The translations under genes were made by a program, and so were the position numbers. From the NCBI RefSeq assembly GCF_000832065.1, contig NZ_JXQM01000001.1, positions 1 through 64,000 of the forward strand: a stretch of DNA of 64,000 bases, in the 5' to 3' direction. Source of the stretch: Nitrosospira sp. NpAV. GTDB lineage: Bacteria; Pseudomonadota; Gammaproteobacteria; Burkholderiales; Nitrosomonadaceae. The first letter of the stretch is position 1. Every line of letters begins with the position of its first letter. Shown one piece after another: positions 51,523-63,853 of the stretch. The notes under the pieces are model-generated. The model was given only the letters and a program-made list of their open reading frames with translations, made no database searches and had not been told where the DNA came from.

Positions 51523-51954
51523 CTATAGATTTGCGTCATAGGTACTACCCGTGTTCATTTCGGGTGAATAAGCGCCCTCGCACTCTTTACGGTCGTGATC
51601 GAATTTCTTCCATATACGTACCCGCTCCTTCTTTTTTTCGGCATTCGCAGCGCGAAGACTCTTTCCGTAATCGCTCCACGCCTTTCTTTGAGAAAACCGC
51701 CGTTCTTTATAGCTTGGGATATTCCAGCTGGCCTTTTCTGCGTCGCGCCGGGCTTCCAGTGCGTTCCCGGCTAAGGATGACCAGATATTTACCATATTTG
51801 CCAGCGAAGTATCACGTTCGTCAATGGCGTTCTGTATGCAGGAAATATCTATTTGCGCACCCGCCACCCCGGTGTTGCCCTCCTTTGCGGAGACCGGAAG
51901 CGCGATGAACCCTATACTTGCGAGAATGAGCACTTTAACAATCCTGCTTTTCAT
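51523..51954 (-). CDS. Hypothetical exported protein
   Basis: The 143-aa protein begins with a clear signal peptide (residues 1-23, cleavage after VSA). The mature part is highly charged and helical (ALEARRDAEKASWNIPSYKERRFSQRKAW, AEKKKERVRIWKKFDHDRKECEG) with two Cys that may form a disulfide (ISCIQN and KKECEG positions). No family is recognised. It is probably periplasmic. TTCTTGACAT direct repeats lie about 100 bases upstream. Confidence 0.6.
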   Translation of the reverse strand: MKSRIVKVLILASIGFIALPVSAKEGNTGVAGAQIDISCIQNAIDERDTSLANMVNIWSSLAGNALEARRDAEKASWNIPSYKERRFSQRKAWSDYGKSLRAANAEKKKERVRIWKKFDHDRKECEGAYSPEMNTGSTYDANL

Positions 51955-52394
51955 TAATCTTCCACAAAACGAAACGGTACTAATTATTCCGAAGCTGATT
52001 CTCGGCGACTTCTTATTACGGATTGAATCTAACGTCTATTCACAAATTCTTGACATCTATTATACACTTTCTTGACATTTGTAAAGAGCTTTTTCTGAAT
52101 CTAATACACTTTTTTGTTGCGCATCGGGAATCCGCAGGGGGAGCAAACGGGAGGAAACCAAGCCTTCGAAATACTTCATTAACCGAGACCGGCAAGCCGA
52201 TAATCCAATCCCGACTCCTCCAAGTTTTCTAGACTAACTTACGAGCCGTTGCTCCCCCACTTTCAACATCTGAAATCCGGTAAAATTATTGAATGCCGTC
52301 CAGGTACAGGAACAATTTCTTCACAATTCCCGCCCATTCCTTGCATTCGCAAGATCGATCCGAATAACCCGGATCCCATTTTTTTTGTGAGGAT
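51955..52394. other. Intergenic region with a TTCTTGACAT direct repeat
   Basis: The 440 bases hold TTCTTGACAT twice (starting at 52048 and 52070, 22 bases apart) around a minus-strand TATAAT (52064-52059) that has TTTACA 15 bases upstream of it on the same strand. This could be the promoter of the exported protein gene and a binding site. AAATCCGGTAAAAT at 52273-52286 resembles an R1 end. No gene is seen. Confidence 0.45.
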
Positions 52395-52817
52395 TTACGG
52401 GAGACGAACCAGAAGAATCGAAGTATCCACCGTATTCACCAGTTGCCCCGCCACGGACCCGATAACCAGGCGTTCCAGGCCTCGCCGGCCCTTTGTTCCT
52501 ACCACAAGTAAATCGGCCCCCCATTCGGTGACGGCATTGGCGATAGCTTCCGATACGCCGTTCAAACCATATTCGCCGTCCGCGTCCAGTAGGCGGGTTT
52601 CCACCGTGATCGCATTGCTGGCGTTGGACTTGGCTCTTTCAAGTAGGCCCGCCCCCTTTTCTCGATTCCCGCCACTTTCTTCGTCCGCATCGGATTCCGC
52701 CACGGCATGAACCACGCATAGTTTGGCGCCGTACGCGCCGGCAATACTCAGAGCTTCTTGTAATGCATTCCGGGAAATTTCATCGTCGCCTATCGCGACC
52801 ATGATTTTCATGTACAT
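52395..52817 (-). CDS. Universal stress protein
   Basis: The 140-aa protein has the UspA fold: MKIMVAIGDDEISRNALQEALSIA (beta-1/alpha-1), LCVVHAVAES, and the ATP-binding pattern VVGTKGRRGLERLVIGSVAGQLVNTVDTSILLVR near the end, matching G-2x-G-9x-G-(S/T). It is therefore of the ATP-binding type. GAGG lies upstream of the ATG at 52817. It is 80 bases downstream of the SulP gene on the same strand and is probably co-transcribed. Confidence 0.9.
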   Translation of the reverse strand: MYMKIMVAIGDDEISRNALQEALSIAGAYGAKLCVVHAVAESDADEESGGNREKGAGLLERAKSNASNAITVETRLLDADGEYGLNGVSEAIANAVTEWGADLLVVGTKGRRGLERLVIGSVAGQLVNTVDTSILLVRLP

Positions 52818-52897: not shown

Positions 52898-54262
52898 TCA
52901 GTCGGCACCGCCATTTGCGTTCACCGAGAATTTCTCAAAATATTTTTTGACAATGACCTTGCTCGGTATTTTGCCAGCTTGCTTGAAAACCAGATAGTTG
53001 ACAAGGCCGTGCACCGCCATGGCGATCAGCAAACCTTCGAAAATACCGACCTTATAGACTAGGAGGCCGCAAAGCGTGGCCAATATCATGGCGTATTGGC
53101 CGTAATGGGCCACGTGCCATAGTCCCATGATCATTTTCCAGCCGGAGAAAATCATGATGGCCGCCAGCGAAAACTTGGGAAGATACTCAAGATACTGGGA
53201 GTTAAGGACAAAGAATGTGACCACGATGCCTACGATAAGGACGGAGAACTTGGTCATGGCACCGGCCAATCTATTGGTGGTGCTTTTTGCCAGGCCGTCC
53301 AGATTGGTCATGCCGCCGAAGAAGCTGGAACCCATATTGGATATCCAGATAGCCAGCAAGCTGTTATTGGTGTTGCATTTGCGTTTTAGCGGATCTATTT
53401 TCTCGATGGCGGCGTTGCTCATGACCTGTTCTATCACATCGATCACCGCCAGCATGGCCGCAAAGCCGATCACATACATCCAGGTCAATGCGCTGTCGAA
53501 GTGCGGTATCGGCAAAGCCAATGCGAGGTCCACATCATCCACGTGCAACATGGACATGGGCATGAATTGTGCAAGCGCTATGCTTGCCCCGATCAACAGG
53601 AAATAGGGAATCGCTGGTTTTGTATCCTTGAATTTCGAAAACAGGTATACAAACATGGAAAAACCGGCTAAGGATACGAGCGCCATTTGTACACGTGCAC
53701 CGTTCCAGAATGCATCAGCAGATTCTTGCTCAGCGGGCAACTCATAGGTAAATGTCAAAAACTTGAGAGCGATCTTCAAGCCGACCCCCGCCAGCAGTCC
53801 TTCGACAAGATAGCTTGGCACCGCCAGCAAAATATATTTTTGCCAATCGAATTTCCATATCACCGCTTGCATGGCGGCAGTCAGGAAAATAACGAACGCC
53901 ATGTTTTCGATGCCAAAACTGTGAACCCCCATCGCCAGGACTGGCGCCAAGCCCGCTGCCACCCCAGGAGTGCCAATGTAGTTGCCCGGCCTGATGAAAG
54001 CATTGATCCAACCGATGAAACAGGCGAACGCAACAGTCGCCAGGGCCACCTTGATGGGATACTCGGACATCAAGGCAATCCCGACAGACAGGGGAATCGC
54101 CATGGCTCCCGTTATGATCCCCGCCTGGAGATCGCGGGCAACATATTTAGCCTGAAATCCCGCTGACCCTACGGGGACAATTGGTTCCGGTGTCCCGTCG
54201 GATTGGTGATCATCCGACGGTACAAGCGGTTTGTCTGAAGTATATGAACTCATAATACTCAT
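52898..54262 (-). CDS. SulP-family anion permease without STAS domain (candidate bicarbonate transporter)
   Basis: The 454-aa protein has about 12 membrane helices of the SulP/SLC26 fold: a conserved start at DLQAGIITGAMAIPLSVGIALMSEYPI, GTPGVAAGLAPVLAMG and FFGGMTNLDGLAKSTTNR. The C-terminal STAS domain usual in sulfate carriers is missing; the protein ends soon after the last helix. Short SulP proteins near carbonic anhydrase or DAB genes are known or proposed bicarbonate importers in autotrophs. Bicarbonate as substrate is inferred from the neighbours (sbtA, dabA). Confidence 0.85.
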   Translation of the reverse strand: MSIMSSYTSDKPLVPSDDHQSDGTPEPIVPVGSAGFQAKYVARDLQAGIITGAMAIPLSVGIALMSEYPIKVALATVAFACFIGWINAFIRPGNYIGTPGVAAGLAPVLAMGVHSFGIENMAFVIFLTAAMQAVIWKFDWQKYILLAVPSYLVEGLLAGVGLKIALKFLTFTYELPAEQESADAFWNGARVQMALVSLAGFSMFVYLFSKFKDTKPAIPYFLLIGASIALAQFMPMSMLHVDDVDLALALPIPHFDSALTWMYVIGFAAMLAVIDVIEQVMSNAAIEKIDPLKRKCNTNNSLLAIWISNMGSSFFGGMTNLDGLAKSTTNRLAGAMTKFSVLIVGIVVTFFVLNSQYLEYLPKFSLAAIMIFSGWKMIMGLWHVAHYGQYAMILATLCGLLVYKVGIFEGLLIAMAVHGLVNYLVFKQAGKIPSKVIVKKYFEKFSVNANGGAD

Positions 54263-54570: not shown

Positions 54571-54609
54571 TGTGAAGAAACTGTTTGCTATTTATAAAGA
54601 ATTTGTGAA
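54571..54609. promoter_or_regulatory. Bipartite motif TGTGAAGAAA-N19-AATTTGTGAA, copy 1
   Basis: TGTGAAGAAA (54571-54580) and AATTTGTGAA (54600-54609) recur with exactly the same 19-base spacer upstream of the dab operon (58909-58947). The spacers themselves are not conserved, which is typical of paired protein-binding sites. It lies about 310 bases upstream of the SulP start. Confidence 0.55.
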
Positions 54610-55315
54610 GTACAATAAGATTTCTGGTATGAATATCGTCGTCCATAGCAGAAACCTATGATTAAAAGCAGGCTTAATATTTTATATTTTTTATATAAAT
54701 CAATTATATATTTATGTCTCTATACCCTCTTGCGGAAAATATCAAACTCACGAGGTCGATTGAAAGAGATCTGCATAAATCTCTATTTGTGATCTTTTAT
54801 TGATATTGTTATGGTTGGATTCGGATAGGATTATGTCGGTCCGGGTTTTTCACCGGATCGCGGAATGGAGATGTAGCTGCCTGCACCGGACAGGTAGCTG
54901 AACATCGATCTGCCAATGGTGTAAGCATCAGGGGCGGCCATCGGACGCAGGGCCACGAGCATCATCTCTAAACGAAAGTGCCGACGCCGCCAGAGGAAAG
55001 GGGTTCTCACGCCAGCCAACACTGCTGGTTCCTCGAATTCGACCCGAAGTTATTTCCCGTCAGGATGAAAAACCAAAAGGGGCTTAGATAGGAACGATTT
55101 GCGTGAAATGGTACGTTCGACTAGCGGATATACGAAAGGAAATGGAGAGATCCGGAGATTAAATACTACTTTACTAGAAACTATTTCTTCGACCCGAGAC
55201 AGTTTGATGGAATTGAAAATGGGGGCCGCTTGTCGGCAGAAGATGGCAAATAGATTTTATGAACCGAAAACCACCGCAAACAGGAAGGATATAAATATCC
55301 TTTCCTGTGAGAGGT

Positions 55316-55807
55316 CTATTTTTTCGAACCCATTCTTTTCCATGCCTGCATCACCTCAATATCGGTTCTCGGATGCTGTGCAAGTTTTGACCATCCGTGG
55401 CGCCTGAGTAATTGATAAACCGTCGACGTCGATACCGATCTGCCCACACGGCGTTCAAGTTCCGCTTTCAATTGTGGAATATGCAAAGCCCCCGTATTCT
55501 GTGCCTCGATAATGAAAGGAGTAAGAAAATTCACTTCTTCATCCAGGCTCATGCGCGCATGATTACGAAGCCCTTTTTTTGTTTTAACCTGTTCGACACC
55601 GGTCTCGATACGTTGAAACCGCGTCCGTAATTTTCCCGTGCGACTTTTGGAAAGTCCGATGATAGTAGCCGTCTGTTCCAGCGAGAGACCGAACTCCAGT
55701 GGTAATAGTAGAGCTTGAGCTGCCCGTAAAGCATCAACCGTCTTTGCGGTCTGAATTCTTTCCTTCGCCGTCTTCACAAATTCTCTTCCCGTCACAGGTC
55801 TCGCCAT
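55316..55807 (-). CDS. Helix-turn-helix protein resembling the N-terminal part of IS630-type transposases
   Basis: The 163-aa protein has two HTH segments: LSLEQTATIIGLSKSRTGKLRTRF (about 48-71) and a winged part with VSTSTVYQLLRRHGWSKLAQHPRT (about 125-148), the layout of the DNA-binding half of IS630/Tc1-type transposases. No DDE catalytic part follows, and the protein ends KRMGSKK with its own stop. It is either a truncated transposase or an orphan DNA-binding protein. The start at 55807 (MARPVTG) is chosen because the sequence above it reads as non-coding; the frame stays open to 55948. Confidence 0.6.
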   Translation of the reverse strand: MARPVTGREFVKTAKERIQTAKTVDALRAAQALLLPLEFGLSLEQTATIIGLSKSRTGKLRTRFQRIETGVEQVKTKKGLRNHARMSLDEEVNFLTPFIIEAQNTGALHIPQLKAELERRVGRSVSTSTVYQLLRRHGWSKLAQHPRTDIEVMQAWKRMGSKK

Positions 55808-56166
55808 CGCATGCTCGAATAAGGTTAATGTTGAATACACAACGGATGATTCCACACAATTGGTTGCCCGAAAGTCTTGTCTGCATGGTTTCATAAGCAC
55901 TTGGGCTGCTGGTAATGGTAAGAAAAAACCTGCGAAGTAAGAATTCAAAGGTTTAGTCCGTTTCGCCAGTGACCCGGCAACTCAGCGACTCCCAGGCAGA
56001 TTGAAACCCGTTGTATCGATGTACACCGCTTATATGGAGAAACCGTCACAAACCATTTTAGCGCGGAGCCGGCCCGCCTTTCTTTCCCGCATCACGTTGC
56101 GGGAGCATGAATTCATGCAGTTCTCGCATCAAAGATACTACGAAGCGGACTCACCAATCGGCGCCC

Positions 56167-56808
56167 TTACTGCCCACGTTCGAGATCCATACTGCCCTGG
56201 CCTATTCCCCGGCGCTTGGGCTTTTCCCCCGGCTTGGCCGCGCGCAATACCGGGTAGTGCTGGGAAAAAACCATATCGTCAGCGGCGTTGGCCTGATGGC
56301 ATGCCGCGCAGGCATCGTCGGCTTGCGCCACGGCGGTTGGTTTGTCGCCAAAGCCAAAATAGGCCCAATTATTTATCTTATCCTTGAAGCGTTTCTTGCT
56401 CTTGACTGCGGCTGCGACGCCACTAAACTCTCCCTGGAAGTAGCCGTTTCCGCTGGATGATTTCTTGTCACCCACGCTGACCATTTCCAGCACAAAAATG
56501 GTTCCATCGCGGAATTTTCCCGTTCTTTTCCAGTAACGCCAGCTTGCGGGATCAATATAAACGTTATGAAACTCCGGAAATGCCGGTTTGCCATCATTCA
56601 TGTCTTTGGGAGTGACAGGAGAACCGACAAAAATCCACTCCCGGTAGTGAACGGGACGAACCAGTTCCCCCGCTTTATTGAATTTAGCGTATACGGTATC
56701 CAATGCATTCGCAGGGGTGGCCTGCGTGACTAACATGCCTGACAGCAATAATGGCAAAACGCTACCTAACAATATTTTCCTGGAAAGTCGCTGCTTCAGC
56801 ATAATCAA
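56167..56808 (-). CDS. cytL: Cytochrome P460
   Basis: The 213-aa protein has a signal peptide (1-36, ending ANA) and a single c-type haem motif CAACH (Cys167, Cys170, His171) near the C-terminus. FPEFHNVYID, WKRTGK (93-98) and YFQGEFSGVAAAVKSKKRF are P460 family segments; the WKRTGK lysines include the candidate for the haem cross-link found in this family. P460 of ammonia oxidisers converts hydroxylamine, with NO, to N2O. The C-terminal 40 residues after the haem motif are longer and more basic than usual. It sits between sbtB and the HTH gene on the same strand. Confidence 0.9.
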   Translation of the reverse strand: MIMLKQRLSRKILLGSVLPLLLSGMLVTQATPANALDTVYAKFNKAGELVRPVHYREWIFVGSPVTPKDMNDGKPAFPEFHNVYIDPASWRYWKRTGKFRDGTIFVLEMVSVGDKKSSSGNGYFQGEFSGVAAAVKSKKRFKDKINNWAYFGFGDKPTAVAQADDACAACHQANAADDMVFSQHYPVLRAAKPGEKPKRRGIGQGSMDLERGQ

Positions 56809-56876
56809 CTCCTTCGATTATTTGGAAACGGATTACGAGATTCAAATTCCAAACCGCATCAATGATGACTGTAGCA

Positions 56877-57206
56877 TCAATATGATACGGCGGGCCCTAT
56901 CACCCATTCGCAGTCTGAAACCAGGCACATTCCGCCAAACTCCTTTAATTTAGGACGGATCGTCATGACTACCCTCTCCGCCTGTTTTTCTTCGCAGGCA
57001 AGAATCACCACCGCATTTTTCTCCTCCAACGCATAGTCGTCCGGACGCCGCTCACCTCGCGAGCCCAGTCCGCCCGCATGTTTGATGGTGGTATAACCGC
57101 GCACGCCAGCCGACCTGCATAGATCAAGCAAATCACCCAGTGATTCTTCGTCCACTACAATTTCGATCCGCTTCATCGCAATTAATGTTTCTGGTCTCAT
57201 TATCAT
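56877..57206 (-). CDS. PII-like protein, SbtB type
   Basis: The 109-aa protein has the PII/ferredoxin-like fold: MKRIEIVVDEESLGDLLDLCRSAGVRGYTTIKHAGGLGSRG, a loop region (ERRPDDYALEEKNAVVIL) shorter than the GlnB T-loop, and a C-terminus with two cysteines (CLVSDCEWVIGP). No Tyr51-type uridylylation site is seen. SbtB proteins bind adenine nucleotides (AMP, cAMP) and control SbtA. The gene is 112 bases downstream of sbtA, the usual arrangement. GGGAG precedes the ATG at 57206. Confidence 0.82.
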   Translation of the reverse strand: MIMRPETLIAMKRIEIVVDEESLGDLLDLCRSAGVRGYTTIKHAGGLGSRGERRPDDYALEEKNAVVILACEEKQAERVVMTIRPKLKEFGGMCLVSDCEWVIGPAVSY

Positions 57207-57318
57207 GGTTTCTCCCGATAGTGGTTACACGATAGGCTGGATTCGAATGCTTTCAACAAATCACAGCCCATCTCTCAAATTCTTAATGAATTGACAAATC
57301 ATCCCGGAATAATTGGGC

Positions 57319-58299
57319 TTACTGTCCGGCCAAATACTGGGCCGCGCCGTAGTACAAGGGAATGCCGACCACCACGTTGAATGGAAAAGTACATCCGAGC
57401 GACAGTGTTAGATAGAAAGACGGATTAGCCTCCGGTATCGCAAGACGCATCGCCGGGGGTACCGCGATGTAGGAGCAGCTGGCCGCGAGTACCGTCACCA
57501 GGGTGACTCCGCCTACGGAGTAGTGAAGGAAGTAATGAGCCGTAAGTATCCCGACAGTGGCGCCGATCAAGGGCATCACTATGCCAAAGCCGACCAGGAA
57601 GACACCCACCTGCTTGAATTCCGACAGTCTTTTTCCCGCCTCCATCCCCATATCGGCCAGGAATATGCATAATGCGCCCATGAATATGGTTTCGAAGAAC
57701 GGCTCGATCTTGTGATAGCTTGCCTCCGATACCACCGCGCCGATGCCCATGGAGCCAAACAGCAACAAAATACTGCCGTTGGTAAAGGCCTCGATCATCA
57801 GGTGCTTCATCATACCCTTATCGGCTTTGGCCGCTCCCCCCATGATTTTCCGGGAATAGCCTGCCAGCACCAAGCCGATCATGATCGCGGGAGATTCCAT
57901 GATCGCCAGCATGATCACGGGATAGGCCTCATAGGTCACGCCGATACCGCCCAGAAATGCGACCGCCGTCATATAGGTTCCCGCGCTCACCGAGCCGTAG
58001 TGCGCGGAAATGGCTGCGGCGTTGAGCGGATCGATCTTTCCAATGGCTCGCAAGATGATATAAGCAACGATAGGCAAGCCGAAGCCGAATGCAAGCGCCG
58101 CCCAGACGGCAGGAATTGCGTCACCCATATTGGATGTAGCCAACGCCTTGCCGCCATGAAGCCCGATACCGATCAGCAGATAGATAACGATCATCTTGTG
58201 CATATCGGGCGGGAACTTCAGGTCCGATTTAACTATGCACGCAAACATGCCAAGGGCAAAAAACAGTATCGCCGGTACGAGAAGACTGGAAATTGACAT
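57319..58299 (-). CDS. sbtA: Sodium-dependent bicarbonate permease SbtA
   Basis: The 326-aa protein has about ten membrane helices in two inverted halves. ISAHYGSVSAGTYMTAVAFL and GALCIFLADMGMEAGKRL with VLAASCSYIAVPPAMRLAIPEANPS near the end are SbtA (DUF897) family segments that shape the Na+ and HCO3- sites. In cyanobacteria SbtA is a high-affinity Na+/HCO3- symporter regulated by SbtB, which here follows directly. AAGGGGG precedes the ATG. Confidence 0.93.
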   Translation of the reverse strand: MSISSLLVPAILFFALGMFACIVKSDLKFPPDMHKMIVIYLLIGIGLHGGKALATSNMGDAIPAVWAALAFGFGLPIVAYIILRAIGKIDPLNAAAISAHYGSVSAGTYMTAVAFLGGIGVTYEAYPVIMLAIMESPAIMIGLVLAGYSRKIMGGAAKADKGMMKHLMIEAFTNGSILLLFGSMGIGAVVSEASYHKIEPFFETIFMGALCIFLADMGMEAGKRLSEFKQVGVFLVGFGIVMPLIGATVGILTAHYFLHYSVGGVTLVTVLAASCSYIAVPPAMRLAIPEANPSFYLTLSLGCTFPFNVVVGIPLYYGAAQYLAGQ

Positions 58300-58359
58300 T
58301 AATATACCCCTTCTTATTTAATTATTAATCTGATCGCATTTTTATGATCGCCGCCGCTC

Positions 58360-58608
58360 TCACCGGCCGTCACGAACGGATTCGAGCCATTGGCTTGTAT
58401 GCTCGGGCAGCCACTTACTCGATGGAGAATATCTCACCGATCTTCGGGCATTATTCAACGGAAGCTGAAAACAGCGGAAAACGTCTGACCACAATGCCTT
58501 CCGCTCCGATTCCCGCAAACCTCCCGCGGCGCCGACGGAGACGGTATCCTTCGCAGGCCCGATTTTAGTGCGAAATTTCTTCGCATCCTCCAAATATAAG
58601 ATCGTCAT
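58360..58608 (-). CDS. Small hypothetical protein upstream of sbtA
   Basis: An 82-codon frame begins MTILYLEDAKKFRTKIGPAK with a GGAGAAAGAT ribosome-binding site directly before the ATG at 58608. The first 45 residues look protein-like, with Asp, Glu and Lys alternating with hydrophobic positions; the C-terminal part (NNARRSVRYSPSSKWLPEHTSQWLES) is basic. No family is recognised. It is 60 bases upstream of sbtA on the same strand and may be the first gene of that transcript. It could also be a non-coding leader. Confidence 0.4.
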   Translation of the reverse strand: MTILYLEDAKKFRTKIGPAKDTVSVGAAGGLRESERKALWSDVFRCFQLPLNNARRSVRYSPSSKWLPEHTSQWLESVRDGR

Positions 58609-58908
58609 ATCTTTCTCCGAAGATGAATGAGTATTTCTAGAACGAAACGGAACGTACTTAAACCAATCTGCATATATCATTTTGTACCGGCACTTTAAGT
58701 CTTTTCACTCATTAAACGAGCGGATTCCTTCTGTTCTTGCTATAGTTTAGTGAAAATTAAATCTTGAATTAAATCACCATTACAAGCTGCCTTATCAAGC
58801 CTTGTTGAACTAAGTATTTGATTATTAATAATTCATTAACATTACAGAGAAGGCGGTTTCGTTATAAGGGATGCGAATTACATTTTGAAAGAAAATTAAC
58901 ATACCCAC

Positions 58909-58947
58909 TGTGAAGAAAACATTTTGGAAGTGTGATTAATTTGTGAA
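58909..58947. promoter_or_regulatory. Bipartite motif TGTGAAGAAA-N19-AATTTGTGAA, copy 2
   Basis: TGTGAAGAAA (58909-58918) and AATTTGTGAA (58938-58947) repeat the arrangement found at 54571-54609 with the same 19-base spacer. Each half contains TGTGAA, 33 bases apart (about three helical turns). It lies 144 bases before the NuoM-like gene and 300 bases before the start of the sbtA-side transcript. Confidence 0.55.
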
Positions 58948-59090: not shown

Positions 59091-60566
59091 ATGGGGATTT
59101 TGAGTGCAATTCTCTGGACCCCCGCAATTGGTGCCCTGATCCTGGCACTGATCTCGGGCCGGGACGCGGATATAGCCCGTTATCTCGGGAATCTATTTGC
59201 CGGCTTCACCCTTTTACTTACCTGCTACCTGCTTTTTAATTACGACCCGCACAATGCCGGTCTGCAGTTCAACGAATACTACGCAATCAACCCCAAGATC
59301 GGAAGCGCTTACGCATTAGGCGTTGATGGGCTGTCACTTCCCATGGTGGCGCTGGCCACACTACTTACCCTGATCTCTCTCCTCGTTTCTTCCAGCATCA
59401 CCAGCAGTATTAAGGGTTACCACATCTGCATTCTGTTGACAGAATTTGGCATGCTGGGAGTGTTCCTGTCCCAGGATTGGTCTCTCTTCTATATTTTCTG
59501 GGAGATCACCCTGATCCCAATGTTTTTTCTGATTGATCGATGGGGTGGCAAACGTCGGCAAACGGCAAGCCTTAACTTTGTGCTGTATACCATGGGCGGC
59601 TCGATTTTCATGCTCGTCAGCCTGATTGCGGTGTACCAATATGTGCCAGAGCATGTCTCCCTGATGAGCGCCATGAACCAGGTTTCGCAGGAAATGCCCA
59701 AGGATCAGCAGATCTGGGCCTTTCTGGGTTTCATGATTGGGTTTGGTGTGAAGATGCCGATATTCCCGCTCCACGGATGGCTGCCTCTCGCTCACGTTGA
59801 AGCACCCAGTCCAGTCAGCATTTTGCTATCCGGCGTTTTACTGAAAATGGGAGCTTATGGTCTGCTCCGGGTCGTAGTCATCCTGCCAATTGCTGCCCAA
59901 GCCATGCAATCGCTGCTGGTTTTTCTGGCGCTATTCGGCATGATCTATGGCGGTTTACTGGCATGGCGGCAAAGTGACCTCAAAGCCATGGTCGCCTATT
60001 CATCGATCAGTCACATGGGCATCGTCTTATTGGGAATTTCAACATTGAATGAGACCGGCTTTACTGGGGCGGTCTTGCAGATGAGCGCGCACGGCCTGAT
60101 TGCGGGCGCGTTATTTCTGGTAGTGGGCCTGCTTTACGACCGCACCCATACCCGCAACATTCAGGATTACAGTTCTCTGGTTCAGGTGATGCCGCGTTTT
60201 GCATTCTTTACCACCATCACGCTGTTGGCTGCAATGGGTATGCCCGGAACCGTGGGAGCTGTAGCTGAACTCCATGCAATGATCGGCGGTTTCCGGCAAT
60301 GGGGCGAACTCATGGTGTTTTTCAGTCTGGCCATTTTAATCAGCACCGCTTATGCGATCCGCACCATTGGTCTGCTATTCACGGGTCCGGTAAAACCGCA
60401 AATGAAGCAGATTGAAGATTTAAGACCAGCTGAGCTATTAGCACTGGGAGTTTTGGTCGCTGGCATTGTGTTATTCGGCTTGCTGCCAGCCTCACTGATT
60501 GATTTGTCAACCGCAACCGTCTCACAAATGAACAGCCTGATCAGGCTACGAGTTCTGGAGGGTTAG
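59091..60566 (+). CDS. NuoM-like proton-channel subunit of a DAB-type complex
   Basis: The 491-aa membrane protein has about 14 helices and the complex I antiporter-type core: FYIFWEITLIPMFFLIDRWGG with the conserved channel Glu, GFGVKMPIFPLHGWLPLAHVEAPSPVSILLSGVLLKMGAYGL with the central Lys, and MSAHGLIAGALFLVVGLLYDR. It resembles NuoM more than NuoL. It is not in a nuo operon: dabA follows after two bases and a NuoL-like gene follows that. It likely supplies proton flow for bicarbonate dehydration. GGGAG lies 18 bases upstream of the ATG, so the ribosome-binding site is weak. Confidence 0.9.
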   Translation: MGILSAILWTPAIGALILALISGRDADIARYLGNLFAGFTLLLTCYLLFNYDPHNAGLQFNEYYAINPKIGSAYALGVDGLSLPMVALATLLTLISLLVSSSITSSIKGYHICILLTEFGMLGVFLSQDWSLFYIFWEITLIPMFFLIDRWGGKRRQTASLNFVLYTMGGSIFMLVSLIAVYQYVPEHVSLMSAMNQVSQEMPKDQQIWAFLGFMIGFGVKMPIFPLHGWLPLAHVEAPSPVSILLSGVLLKMGAYGLLRVVVILPIAAQAMQSLLVFLALFGMIYGGLLAWRQSDLKAMVAYSSISHMGIVLLGISTLNETGFTGAVLQMSAHGLIAGALFLVVGLLYDRTHTRNIQDYSSLVQVMPRFAFFTTITLLAAMGMPGTVGAVAELHAMIGGFRQWGELMVFFSLAILISTAYAIRTIGLLFTGPVKPQMKQIEDLRPAELLALGVLVAGIVLFGLLPASLIDLSTATVSQMNSLIRLRVLEG

Positions 60567-60568
60567 CC

Positions 60569-63500
60569 ATGCATACTGCATCCTTAGGTACCGATCCCGC
60601 AGGTAATTTACGCGAGCAGATCACGACGGCATTAAATCATCTGGATCATGTCTTGCCCGGTCAAGCGCCCATCCTTGATTTTGTGCATCACAACACCCTG
60701 CATGGCTTCCAGCATCTCCCATTTGAGGAAGCATTGGCGGACTTCGAAAAATTAACCGGTATTTGTGGTTATCTTCCTGAAGCACGCAGCCGTGAGTTTT
60801 ATCAGCAAGGGCGTATCAATGATGACGATATTTTTGCGGCGCTCGCGCATGACCCTCATTTACAAGCAGAACAGATCGTCTGCAAATTAAAAGACAGAAA
60901 CATCAGCCGAAAGGAATTGTATCGGATCGCTCTGCTATTCGATTTGCAGCCCCTGACCGTAAGTCAGCTGAATTGGCAAATAGAAGAGCTGAACGCACTG
61001 GATGCCGTACAGGCGGATGTGCCTCAACAAGTTCGTGACGAACTCCTTGCCGGCAGTGCCCGCCCGGACAGCGTAGTGAAGCAACTGTGGGAAAGCATTG
61101 TGACAAAGCTTGGAATGCAACAGGCTGGACTACACCCTGAGAATTTGCTTGATTTGTCGCTCGAGCAAGCTGAAGAGTGGCTGGACTATGCTCGCGAAAG
61201 AAGCGATGGAGCCTCGGTTCATCAGCAAATGCAACTGCAGGCGAGAAAGATAATGGACGATTTAGATGATCAGCTCGGCGATGATATTACCCTCCGCGGC
61301 TTTGTCATGACGTTGAGCGGAATCGATATTCTTGACTCTGTGCGCCCACAGCTAATCCGGATCTGCGCATCGAGCATGGATGAAGGCATAGCTGCCTGGC
61401 ATACCCCGGAGCGAAGCCGCTTGGGTCTTTATGCTGCCTGGCGGGCGATTGTTCAATATGATGCCAATCCCTTCTTGCAGGATCTGCCCAACTGGCAGCA
61501 GATTATAGCGGAATTGCCCTCCGACGCTTTAGACACCATTATCCTTCAACTAACTCAGCTTGAAATACCTCGAACAAAATGGGAAGGATATCTCCAGCGC
61601 TTAACACTTGAATTGCCGGGCTGGTCTGGCCTGATTAACTGGCGCCAACACCATCCTTCCTATTATGCGGTAGAGGACGCAAAACCCAATCTCGCCGATT
61701 ATCTGGCAATACGGTTAACGCTTGATCGGCTCTGGTTAAATCAAGTCTGCCGAGAAATTTGGCTGATCGAAGCGAAGTTGAGCAGTTTACAGACATATTT
61801 TCGTAAAAACTTATCAGAATTTTTGGTTCGGCACCATTTATATCAGGGAAAATTGCCGGAATATCTGACCCAGCGGGCAGAATCGCTAACAATGCTTGCA
61901 GTTTCAGAACGACATAAACGTGCTGATTGGCAACACCTTGCCGACCTGATTCAGACCTGGGAATTGAGTCCGCTGGCTGAACAACAAGGTAAAAACCACA
62001 CCATTTATAGTAGCGGCTGGCGCCTGTTTCGCTTGTGCCAGCACTTAGGCCTGAGTGCCTTATCCCTACAGACACTCGAAAAACGGGATTTGCTGCAAAT
62101 AATCACATTGCTGGATCAATTTTCCATAACGGAACGTGGCAAAGTCTGGCTTTACGCTTATGAGCGACACTATCGCGACAGCATCTTTCAGGCGATAAGC
62201 GCTAATCACAATCGGGGAACCTGGGCGAAGCGCAATACCCGTCCCAGCTCACAAATTATTTTCTGTATAGATGATCGCGAAGAAAGCTTTCGCAGACATC
62301 TGGAAGAACTCAACCCTGATATTGAAACGCTGGGTGCGGCAGGATTCTTTGGCGTACCGATGAACTATAAGGGTCTCGATGACACCAGGGTAACGCCCTT
62401 ATGTCCGGTAGTGGTAACACCTGCCCATGAAGTAAGGGAAATACCGCGATCCGGGCGCGAACAAGCGATGATCCGGCATACCAACGGGCGCAAATGGTTA
62501 CAGGCAGGCGTTAACCTGCTGCATCAAAGTATACGTCGCAACCTCGTATTGTCCCATCCGTTTATTGATGCAATTGCGCCGGTCACTCTCCTTGGATTAT
62601 TGGCCAAATCAATAATACCTAGAAGCCAGCAAAAACTGGTGGCAGAGGTGCGCCAGTTGGTATCTCCTGCAGTCGACACAGAACTGATGTTTACGTCAAC
62701 GGATAATGAAACGATTGCCACGCCGGCCCAACCCAAGCTGGGCTTTACGGACAAGGAGCAGGCCGACAAAGTTGCCGGTTTTTTACGGAATGCCGGGTTG
62801 ACCTACGGATTCTCGCAACTAGTAGTGTTGATGGGGCATGGCTCTATCAGCCAGAACAACCCTCATTTGGCGGCCTATGACTGTGGGGCATGCAGCGGCC
62901 GTCATGGGGGACCGAACGCAAGGCTGTTTGCGGCAATGGCCAATCGCCCGGTAATACGCAAGCTGTTAGTGGAACGGGGCATTGATATTCCATCCGATAC
63001 CTGGTTCATTGGCGCCGAACATAACACCTGCAATGAGGAAATTATCTGGTATGACCTGGGCGATGTACCTGAGGAACGGCGAGATGGACTCACCGAATTA
63101 CTTGGCCAATTGCGTCATGGGCAACAGATGTCCGCGCATGAACGTTGCCGGCGGCTGGCATCAGCACCGCGTAAACCTACACCGGTAAAAGCTCTGAAAC
63201 ATATTGAAGAGCGTGCTACCGATTTTTCCCAAGCCAGGCCTGAATTGGGACATGCCACCAACGCAGCTGCAGTGGTGGGACGCAGATCGGTGACACAAGG
63301 CGTATTCTTCGATCGCCGTGTCTTCCTCATTTCCTATGATCCAACCCAGGATCCAGAGGGGAAGGTGCTGGAAGGCATCCTGCTGGCTGTAGGACCCGTA
63401 GGTGCCGGCATTAATCTGGAATACTACTTCTCTACCGCGAATAATGAACGATTTGGTTGCGGGACAAAGGTACCGCACAACGTGGCTGGAATGTTTGGAG

Positions 63501-63853
63501 TCATGGAAGGGGCATCCAGCGATTTGCGTACCGGCCTCCCGCGCCAGATGATCGAGATTCATGAAGCGATGCGCTTGCAAATCATGGTCGAAGCCAAAAC
63601 ATCCGTTCTTGAGCAAATTTACGCCCGCCAGGAGAGCCTGCGCGAATTGATAGCAGGAGGATGGATACTTCTCAGCGCGAAAGATCCTGATAGCAGTGAG
63701 ATATTTATCTTTGAGCGCGGTATCGGATTTGTTCTCTGGCAAGCTGAAGCAGCAAAAATACCCATATTCAGAAATTCGCCAGAATATTACCGCGATCACA
63801 GTCAGCCATTATCTCCTGTATTGATCAGGCAACCCGCATTATTGGAGATATAG
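60569..63853 (+). CDS. dabA: DabA-type inorganic carbon uptake protein (DUF2309)
   Basis: The 1094-aa soluble protein resembles the beta-carbonic-anhydrase-like subunit of the DAB energy-coupled carbon uptake system. Candidate zinc ligands are Cys566 and Asp568 in IIFCIDDREESFRRHLEE, His757 in VLMGHGS and Cys772 in AYDCGACSGRHGG. The 15-residue spacing between His and Cys equals that of characterised DabA2. DAILDFVHHNTLHGFQHL-like N-terminal and GINLEYYFSTANNERFGCGTKVPHNVAG C-terminal segments are family-typical. It overlaps neither neighbour: 2 bases after the NuoM-like gene and 4 before the NuoL-like gene. The proposed role is vectorial CO2-to-HCO3- conversion driven by proton flow. Confidence 0.93.
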   Translation: MHTASLGTDPAGNLREQITTALNHLDHVLPGQAPILDFVHHNTLHGFQHLPFEEALADFEKLTGICGYLPEARSREFYQQGRINDDDIFAALAHDPHLQAEQIVCKLKDRNISRKELYRIALLFDLQPLTVSQLNWQIEELNALDAVQADVPQQVRDELLAGSARPDSVVKQLWESIVTKLGMQQAGLHPENLLDLSLEQAEEWLDYARERSDGASVHQQMQLQARKIMDDLDDQLGDDITLRGFVMTLSGIDILDSVRPQLIRICASSMDEGIAAWHTPERSRLGLYAAWRAIVQYDANPFLQDLPNWQQIIAELPSDALDTIILQLTQLEIPRTKWEGYLQRLTLELPGWSGLINWRQHHPSYYAVEDAKPNLADYLAIRLTLDRLWLNQVCREIWLIEAKLSSLQTYFRKNLSEFLVRHHLYQGKLPEYLTQRAESLTMLAVSERHKRADWQHLADLIQTWELSPLAEQQGKNHTIYSSGWRLFRLCQHLGLSALSLQTLEKRDLLQIITLLDQFSITERGKVWLYAYERHYRDSIFQAISANHNRGTWAKRNTRPSSQIIFCIDDREESFRRHLEELNPDIETLGAAGFFGVPMNYKGLDDTRVTPLCPVVVTPAHEVREIPRSGREQAMIRHTNGRKWLQAGVNLLHQSIRRNLVLSHPFIDAIAPVTLLGLLAKSIIPRSQQKLVAEVRQLVSPAVDTELMFTSTDNETIATPAQPKLGFTDKEQADKVAGFLRNAGLTYGFSQLVVLMGHGSISQNNPHLAAYDCGACSGRHGGPNARLFAAMANRPVIRKLLVERGIDIPSDTWFIGAEHNTCNEEIIWYDLGDVPEERRDGLTELLGQLRHGQQMSAHERCRRLASAPRKPTPVKALKHIEERATDFSQARPELGHATNAAAVVGRRSVTQGVFFDRRVFLISYDPTQDPEGKVLEGILLAVGPVGAGINLEYYFSTANNERFGCGTKVPHNVAGMFGVMEGASSDLRTGLPRQMIEIHEAMRLQIMVEAKTSVLEQIYARQESLRELIAGGWILLSAKDPDSSEIFIFERGIGFVLWQAEAAKIPIFRNSPEYYRDHSQPLSPVLIRQPALLEI

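Follow-up and report, generated by a model that had tools for sequence, protein, structure and literature searches.

The first 64,000 nucleotides of contig NZ_JXQM01000001.1 of Nitrosospira sp. NpAV (hereafter the window) contain an island of genes for inorganic-carbon uptake, in which a repeated element, here called the box, lies upstream of a SulP-family transporter gene and again between the bicarbonate transporter gene sbtA and the dab genes. We find that the box is an array of short repeats that recurs before inorganic-carbon genes in related genomes and behind the genes of one two-component system, a response regulator (RR) and a histidine kinase (HK). Judging from sequence comparison, the regulator of this pair is likely to bind the box and to coordinate the uptake of inorganic carbon in Nitrosospira and Nitrosomonas. 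The relevant features of the window are the following, with bit scores from the site model R1 described below.

54571..54609, + strand: long-form box upstream of SulP; four units of 11 bp, unit 3 degenerate; 0 mismatches, R1 41.6 bits
54558..54565, + strand: inverted element upstream of the SulP box, ATATCACT, fitting TNNCAY (alignment of 32 sites)
58909..58947, + strand: long-form box in the gap that separates sbtA (-) from the dab genes (+); 0 mismatches, R1 50.1 bits
58896..58903, + strand: inverted element upstream of the sbtA/dab box, TTAACATA (alignment of 32 sites)
58862..58867, - strand: -10-like TTATAA of the presumed sbtA promoter, read by eye
52039..52077, - strand: third copy of the box, upstream of the gene for a 143-aa exported protein (51523-51954); 1 mismatch
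52395..52817, - strand: universal stress protein gene adjoining SulP (PF00582)
52898..54262, - strand: SulP-family transporter gene, presumed target (PF00916)
56877..57206, - strand: PII-like gene (sbtB), presumed target together with sbtA (PF00543)
57319..58299, - strand: sbtA, Na+-dependent bicarbonate transporter, presumed target (PF05982, E 2.7e-106)
59091..60566, + strand: dabB-type NuoM-like subunit, perhaps also served by the 58909 box (PF00361)
60569..63853, + strand: dabA (PF10070, E 1.8e-252)

An earlier note on this DNA had described the motif TGTGAAGAAA-N19-AATTTGTGAA at 54571-54609 and 58909-58947, beside SulP, sbtA and dab. Both sites are present on the + strand with 0 mismatches, and the gene neighbours were borne out, with SulP at 52898-54262 (-), sbtA at 57319-58299 (-) and dab-type genes at 59091-63853 (+). 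The third copy of the pattern, at 52039-52077 on the minus strand, has 1 mismatch and has counterparts in the relatives L059 and L112. R1, a 52-position model, found the same three sites in the window and none besides at E <=1. Allowing up to 3 mismatches, the long pattern matched nine times in the whole genome, compared to no match for a reversed control pattern, and three times in the window, where dinucleotide shuffles gave an expectation of 0.01. The last figure makes it hardly credible that the boxes are chance repeats or the ends of mobile elements with no regulatory role, even if one site, at the leuA locus, does adjoin a transposase gene in three genomes. Such an origin is also at odds with the fixed position and orientation of the box before orthologous genes in many genomes and with its conservation in 19 hand-chosen Nitrosomonas-type loci, all of which have a recognisable box: there it is the best conserved 28-column window of the intergenic region, with 93% identity compared to a mean of 52%.

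The motif had been described as bipartite with an unconserved spacer, a description that has to be replaced: the box is a head-to-tail array of 11-bp units, TGTGAAGAATT on the strand used in the earlier note, and the spacer often holds a further unit. Units 1 and 4 are the strongest, and both belong to the search pattern. Among 96 distinct sites that differ from the pattern at no more than 3 positions, unit 2 was seen in 15 and unit 3 (TGTNA at +22) in 57, while TNNCA at -12 to -8, outside the motif as first described, was seen in 71; the last two counts are upper estimates because most loci were chosen by R1, which has both features, or by eye. In the window, TGTGA stands at +22 in the 58909 box and not in the 54571 box. 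The upstream element, T(A/G)NCAYA at 5 bp from the array, is an inverted copy of the half-site, giving the form T..CAYA-N5-TGTGAA. The alignment on which R1 is based (A1) holds 32 of 55 distinct sites, with loci L009-L012 left out beforehand, and these were picked by eye for the upstream element, so that its invariance in A1 is not independent and the 71 of 96 is inflated for this reason too. Read on the strand of the presumed target, the box is TTCACA...TTCACA-N5-TRTGNTAA, as also for the 54571-54609 box, which gives TTCACA on the SulP strand, and in the presumed sbtA promoter of the window the -10-like TTATAA then follows; by eye, TTATAAC was also found after the box in L016, L025, L026 and L031. 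A short form of the box is TTCACGAATTCTTCACA-N5-TRTGNTAA.

Some genomes have tandem arrays that lack the upstream element. Examples are the TGTGAA-N5 arrays at L048:5629-5765, L050:5984, L051:5898 and L052:5778-5827; the one in L048 lies upstream of a gene for a DUF6733 protein (Pfam, assigned in L048 only) that is divergent from a hisG-like gene, and similar genes are found in L050-L052. Other arrangements were seen in single genomes: six box-like matches within 1.1 kb from dab to sbtA in one relative (L055:4657-5758), and a core box followed by five partial core matches at a spacing of about 18 bp, not 11 (G087:C22:6441-6559).

Conservation in close relatives, on which the earlier note had let its proposal depend, was examined in a scan of 61 genomes comprising the genus itself (g1, 23 genomes), the sister genus (g2, 5 genomes), two further groups (g3 and g4) and a sample of the order. 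All but one of the 23 genus genomes contain the motif, with 144 matches compared to 6 for the reversed pattern, and the five sister-genus genomes gave 11 long-pattern matches and no control match. In 24 genomes from other families of the order, the 4 matches were at background (6 for the control). R1, a sequence-only model of 32 sites, had matches in all 23 genus genomes, from at least 3 to at least 14 each at E <=0.01, these being lower bounds because no more than 150 first-look candidates per genome were scored. The short form, with up to 2 mismatches, occurred in 36 of 121 genomes, all of them g1 or g3, with no control matches, and in none of 48 genomes outside the family; the strict short pattern was not found in the genome of NpAV. 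A short-form model (R2, 27 sites), run with stricter filters on a sample of 100 family genomes, had matches in 80 of them at E <=0.05, and it fits its own sites by construction because the 27 sites of its alignment (A2) were selected with a regular expression for the box.

To see which genes stand behind the sites, we took the 110 R1 matches with E <=1e-4 in the genus as strong sites and used tblastn to assign those that lie -60 to 1000 bp upstream of a carbon gene; open reading frames (ORFs) were assigned separately with a crude longest-ORF caller. The expectation of the earlier note that the motif would be restricted to carbon-fixation loci held for 48 of the 110 strong sites, which precede inorganic-carbon genes (sbtA 20, alpha-carbonic anhydrase 13, SulP 9, Pro_CA_2-type anhydrase 4, dabB 2), and failed for the other 62. 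Its idea of one shared regulator that coordinates the carbon island is supported by the comparison of genomes, while its pair of binding sites has grown into a genome-wide regulon. At 46 of the 48 carbon-gene sites, the gene is on the strand opposite TGTGAA, and only the 2 dabB sites have it on the same strand; over all strong sites, an ORF of at least 90 aa in target position is found on the opposite strand at 104 of 110 and on the same strand at 41 of 110. By the ORF method, the opposite-strand targets include sbtA (17 sites in 11 genomes), a PEP-CTERM alpha-carbonic anhydrase (13 in 11), SulP (9 in 9) and Pro_CA_2-type anhydrases (3 in 3, one of them a fragment). In the genome of NpAV, a second copy of sbtA (C2:41181) has a site, as does the alpha-anhydrase gene (C1:398609; R1 match 398387-398429, E 3.2e-4). 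In five genomes, the sbtA box is flanked by dab on its other side, and one box may therefore serve both. RuBisCO was rejected as a target, as the large-subunit genes (C1:100193 and C288:164677) are not near any model match.

The recurrent targets outside carbon uptake are a DUF2490 protein (12 sites in 12 genomes), a 132-aa membrane protein (11 in 11), an exported protein of about 506 aa (9 in 9) and a PEP-CTERM protein (6 in 6), with domain names taken from one or two members of each family, and smaller groups exist besides these. All four families, with 38 sites together, look membrane-bound or exported on reading. The 62 strong sites away from carbon genes, many of them before genes for membrane or exported proteins, fit a different assignment of the signal, in which the RR-HK system binds the box and responds to an envelope, pH or metal cue as ColRS does, with the carbon genes as one branch of the response. 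We regard this as possible, if doubtful, and return to it with the evidence from the operon and from ColRS itself.

A candidate for the protein that binds the box was sought among the OmpR-type DNA-binding domains (PF00486) of the genome, of which there are five. Four of the proteins read as PhoB, KdpE, a CpxR-like regulator and a ToxR/TPR-type protein from their neighbours and sequence, and the fifth is a response regulator encoded with a histidine kinase and a gene for a CsoSCA-like anhydrase (locus L066). The RR-HK pair is at about 69885-71874 of the contig, next to hemE and 6-8 kb past the window; together with the anhydrase gene, it occupies a stretch beyond dab, 5-8 kb past the window. 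The domains above cut-off are PF00072 and PF00486 (receiver and Trans_reg_C) in the regulator and PF00512 and PF02518 (HisKA and HATPase_c) in the kinase. Orthologs of the regulator share 88-100% identity in 22 of the 23 genus members, 86-90% in 5 of 5 g2 genomes and 77-79% in 3 of 5 g3 genomes; none was found in the 4 g4 genomes, where the motif is near absent, and the best proteins of the order sample are at most 52% identical. The gene order in g2 is RR-HK-box-sbtA. Genus members without sbtA at this place have dabA2-dabB2 next, plus SulP where visible, and the gap holds the short form, which also precedes sbtA in two g3 genomes. In the 12 genomes with short-form matches and a located regulator gene, 12 of the 13 matches genome-wide are no more than 2.5 kb from that gene. 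Paralogs of the regulator occur in G022 (L171, three copies) and G015 (L147), and one in each genome is preceded by a partial site, which may point to autoregulation.

The linkage was followed further in one scan of named genomes with the regulator, of which the best 80 relatives were used; the close relatives among these belong to Nitrosospira, Nitrosovibrio and Nitrosomonas. Of 50 close loci with a kinase gene, 48 have hemE before the regulator (it was not seen in L233 and L239), and 42 have a carbon gene within 2.5 kb past the kinase, namely, sbtA in 32, dabA2 in 4, SulP in 4, and Pro_CA_2 and a CsoSCA-like anhydrase in 1 each, leaving 8 with no carbon gene. That an inorganic-carbon gene follows the operon so often, and that several unrelated types of carbon gene are targeted, argues against an envelope, pH or metal cue as the signal. 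In the 44 loci with at least 2 kb past the kinase, 37 have both a carbon gene and a box, 2 a carbon gene only, none a box only and 5 neither (10 of the R1 boxes in this count were taken by hand from another table); the association has a Fisher value of 1.9e-5, and this and our binomial values overstate independence because the loci are related. Behind the operon, the type of carbon gene varies between loci, and the box is retained.

Together with synteny, more distant homologs supply the principal grounds for assigning the repeat to this lineage of regulators. The distant set consists of 29 loci from Rhodocyclaceae, Sideroxydans, Gallionellaceae, Desulfobacterota and others, in which the regulator is 49-64% identical, 28 of them (50-64%) with a usable kinase end. 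The repeat TT(C/G/A)AC(A/G)-N5-TT(C/G/A)AC(A/G) was found within -60 to +600 of the kinase stop codon in 16 of the 28, always on the + strand, compared to a background of 20 11-bp TTNACR repeats in 414,017 bases elsewhere in these loci, or 0.032 expected per locus; the test is partly post hoc, its final pattern and window having been set after 18 of the loci had been viewed, and the repeat was found in 14 of these 18 and in 2 of the 10 unviewed ones. One locus scored as negative, L262, has a four-unit array just beyond the test window. The genes after the repeat vary, one example being a SulP gene with a STAS domain in L272. No 11-bp TTNACR repeat occurs in the three stretches of the NpAV genome that surround its PhoB, KdpE and CpxR-like systems. 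SulP-family genes after a distant RR-HK pair are found at L266:6065-7858 and L272:11039-12850 (Pfam) and, by eye, at L179:9742-11448, in hosts that are Magnetococcales and Betaproteobacteria metagenome-assembled genomes and one order-level relative.

The same loci bear on whether another protein reads the box, be it PhoB, a LysR-type carbon regulator or the helix-turn-helix (HTH) protein of the HTH_33 type encoded at 55316-55948, with the RR-HK pair as a mere neighbour. The classical PhoB box is also an 11-bp direct repeat, a PhoB-PhoR pair is present in the genome, and an HTH_33-type gene recurs beside sbtAB in L046, L054, L055, L058 and L059. We nevertheless consider a different reader improbable, given that the repeat follows distant homologs of the RR-HK pair, that nearly all short-form matches in 12 genomes are close to the regulator gene and that L175, L176 and L178 have a box with no HTH_33 gene among the ORFs listed. 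PhoB was dropped as a candidate on the grounds of synteny.

Several findings weigh against the RR-HK pair as reader of the box and against carbon as its signal, in addition to the 62 sites elsewhere, the relatedness of the loci and the post hoc part of the distant test. In the NpAV genome, we saw no box by eye upstream of the regulator gene, the gap between kinase and anhydrase genes holds only a degenerate box, and the window site at 52039-52077 is oriented opposite to the genus-wide rule. A Pho-box scan of this genome stayed at background (19 matches compared to 14 for the control) and found no PhoB sites, so that these were neither located nor PhoB excluded. In other genomes, regulator and motif do not always go together: G018, a genus genome in 260 contigs, has 7 motif matches and no close regulator that we could find, G017 has the regulator (91%) and no strict long match, G024 has a 77% regulator and neither the long nor the short form, and the short-form match G014:C10:937221 is not near the regulator. 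Finally, L202 (SulP) and L242 (sbtA) have a carbon gene past the kinase with no box by our criteria, weaker traces being visible, and L239, on a short contig and outside the 44 loci, carries a TTCAC repeat, and no carbon gene was seen there.

Taking arrays, targets, orientation, conservation and linkage to the two-component operon together, all of which are directly observed by comparison, we infer binding, phosphorylation, activation rather than repression and a carbon signal in the following way. The box would be the binding array of an OmpR-family response regulator, TTCAC(A/G)-N5 in head-to-tail steps of 11 bp on the target strand, and the inverted half-site TRTGNTAA, 5 bp after the array, would face the promoter. 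A signal, most plausibly shortage of inorganic carbon, would lead the kinase to phosphorylate the regulator, which would then occupy the arrays and jointly activate sbtA-sbtB, SulP, dab, the carbonic anhydrase genes and those for several proteins of the membrane or for export. It is an even call whether the system is, more broadly, a two-component system dedicated to sensing the supply of inorganic carbon in chemolithoautotrophs, in which the end of the operon serves as a fixed docking promoter behind which sbtA, Dab2, SulP and carbonic anhydrase were exchanged in evolution, and in which further boxes, extended to four units, carry the response across the Nitrosospira genome. The sensor domain of the kinase gave no clue to the signal: the structure model has a mean pLDDT of 77.8 and a pTM of 0.43, no Pfam sensor family was matched, and in a fold search, the 50 PDB matches listed were mostly histidine-kinase cores or kinase-containing entries and did not identify the sensor domain.

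Among known systems, ColRS and CreBC are the most similar at the DNA level, and we assign the RR-HK system to neither. Both our regulator and ColR are of the OmpR family, and the core TTCACGAATTCTTCACA resembles the ColR sites, which by our own reading of Table 1 in the part of PMC2689224 available are TT(C/G)AC-N6-TT(C/G)AC in 5 of 7 cases. The boxed target directly after the kinase gene is paralleled by the PP0903 target operon after colRS in Pseudomonas, and many targets in both systems are membrane proteins (PMC2689224, same passages). This likeness of the half-site, together with the mostly membrane-related predicted ColR targets (PMC2689224) and the sensing of Zn, Fe(III), Mn and Cd by ColS (PMC4074579, in the passages available), would suit an envelope or metal signal. 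In contrast, the ColR spacer is T-rich, the available passages of the ColR papers describe no inverted third half-site and no four-unit form, and the ColR targets there are membrane-related genes and not carbon uptake (PMC2689224). The periplasmic metal motif of ColS, FExRE (ExxE), as given in the available part of PMC4074579, is absent in its full form from all 39 kinases examined here, which tells against a metal signal; a bare ExxE anywhere in residues 31-160 is found in 10 of 39 and takes the form ExRE in 5 (L233, L239, L243, L246 and L248), none of them seen with a carbon gene behind, a point in favor of such a signal. In Nitrosospira and Nitrosomonas, the segment Y.(I/V).(L/F)H mostly stands ahead of the kinase's second membrane helix.

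The cre/blr tag of CreBC/BlrA, TTCAC-N6-TTCAC, has the half-site and spacing found here, and in Stenotrophomonas it lies in the creC-creD gap, just past the kinase gene (PMC4689548, in the passages available). The targets differ, and against the CreB equivalog model, with its cut-off of 273 bits, our regulator reaches 154. No creD was seen by eye beside the regulator, where the neighbours are hemE and inorganic-carbon genes, and no profile search for creD was made. PhoBR likewise has an OmpR-family regulator, and the differences are a score of 168 bits on the PhoB model (cut-off 296) and the presence of a separate PhoB-PhoR pair in the genome; the half-site of the Pho box also differs from that of the box described here. 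In all, our regulator stays under the cut-offs of four NCBIfam models, those for PhoB, PmrA, QseB and CreB. CcmR of cyanobacteria is a LysR-family regulator. Like the system proposed here, it controls inorganic-carbon uptake genes, and it differs in being a one-component regulator that senses internal metabolites according to the available passages of PMC3401165, compared to a putative membrane two-component system in Nitrosospira.

Ammonia oxidizers start nitrification and live on CO2. By title and start of abstract, none of the literature matches listed describes this regulon or names a regulator of bicarbonate or CO2 uptake in these organisms, and neither "two-component" nor "response regulator" occurs in the available passages of PMC12628692 and PMC10880623. 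The candidate regulator, the exact site and the set of targets, among them sbtA (in two copies in this genome), SulP, Dab and three kinds of carbonic anhydrase, make the control of carbon acquisition testable. The genes of unknown function for DUF2490, the 132-aa membrane protein and the exported protein of about 506 aa would through their sites be linked to carbon uptake.

Some neighbours of sbtA-sbtB deserve mention on their own. The second sbtA-sbtB pair of the NpAV genome (G000:C2, locus L046:3713-5203) has its own long-form box. The HTH protein encoded beside sbtB in the window (55316-55948, -) is of the HTH_33/HTH_23 kind and transposase-like, with no catalytic domain seen, and HTH proteins of 163-210 aa adjoin sbtA-sbtB in relatives by eye (L046:3048-3557, L054:6981-7493, L058:7441-7953 and L059:9028-9519), with two of them in L055 (7820-8317 and 11807-12298); possibly, this is a domesticated regulator. 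A cytochrome P460 gene (56167-56808, -) lies inside the carbon-uptake island, adjoining sbtB, and a similar protein is encoded, by eye, at L059:8068-8694.

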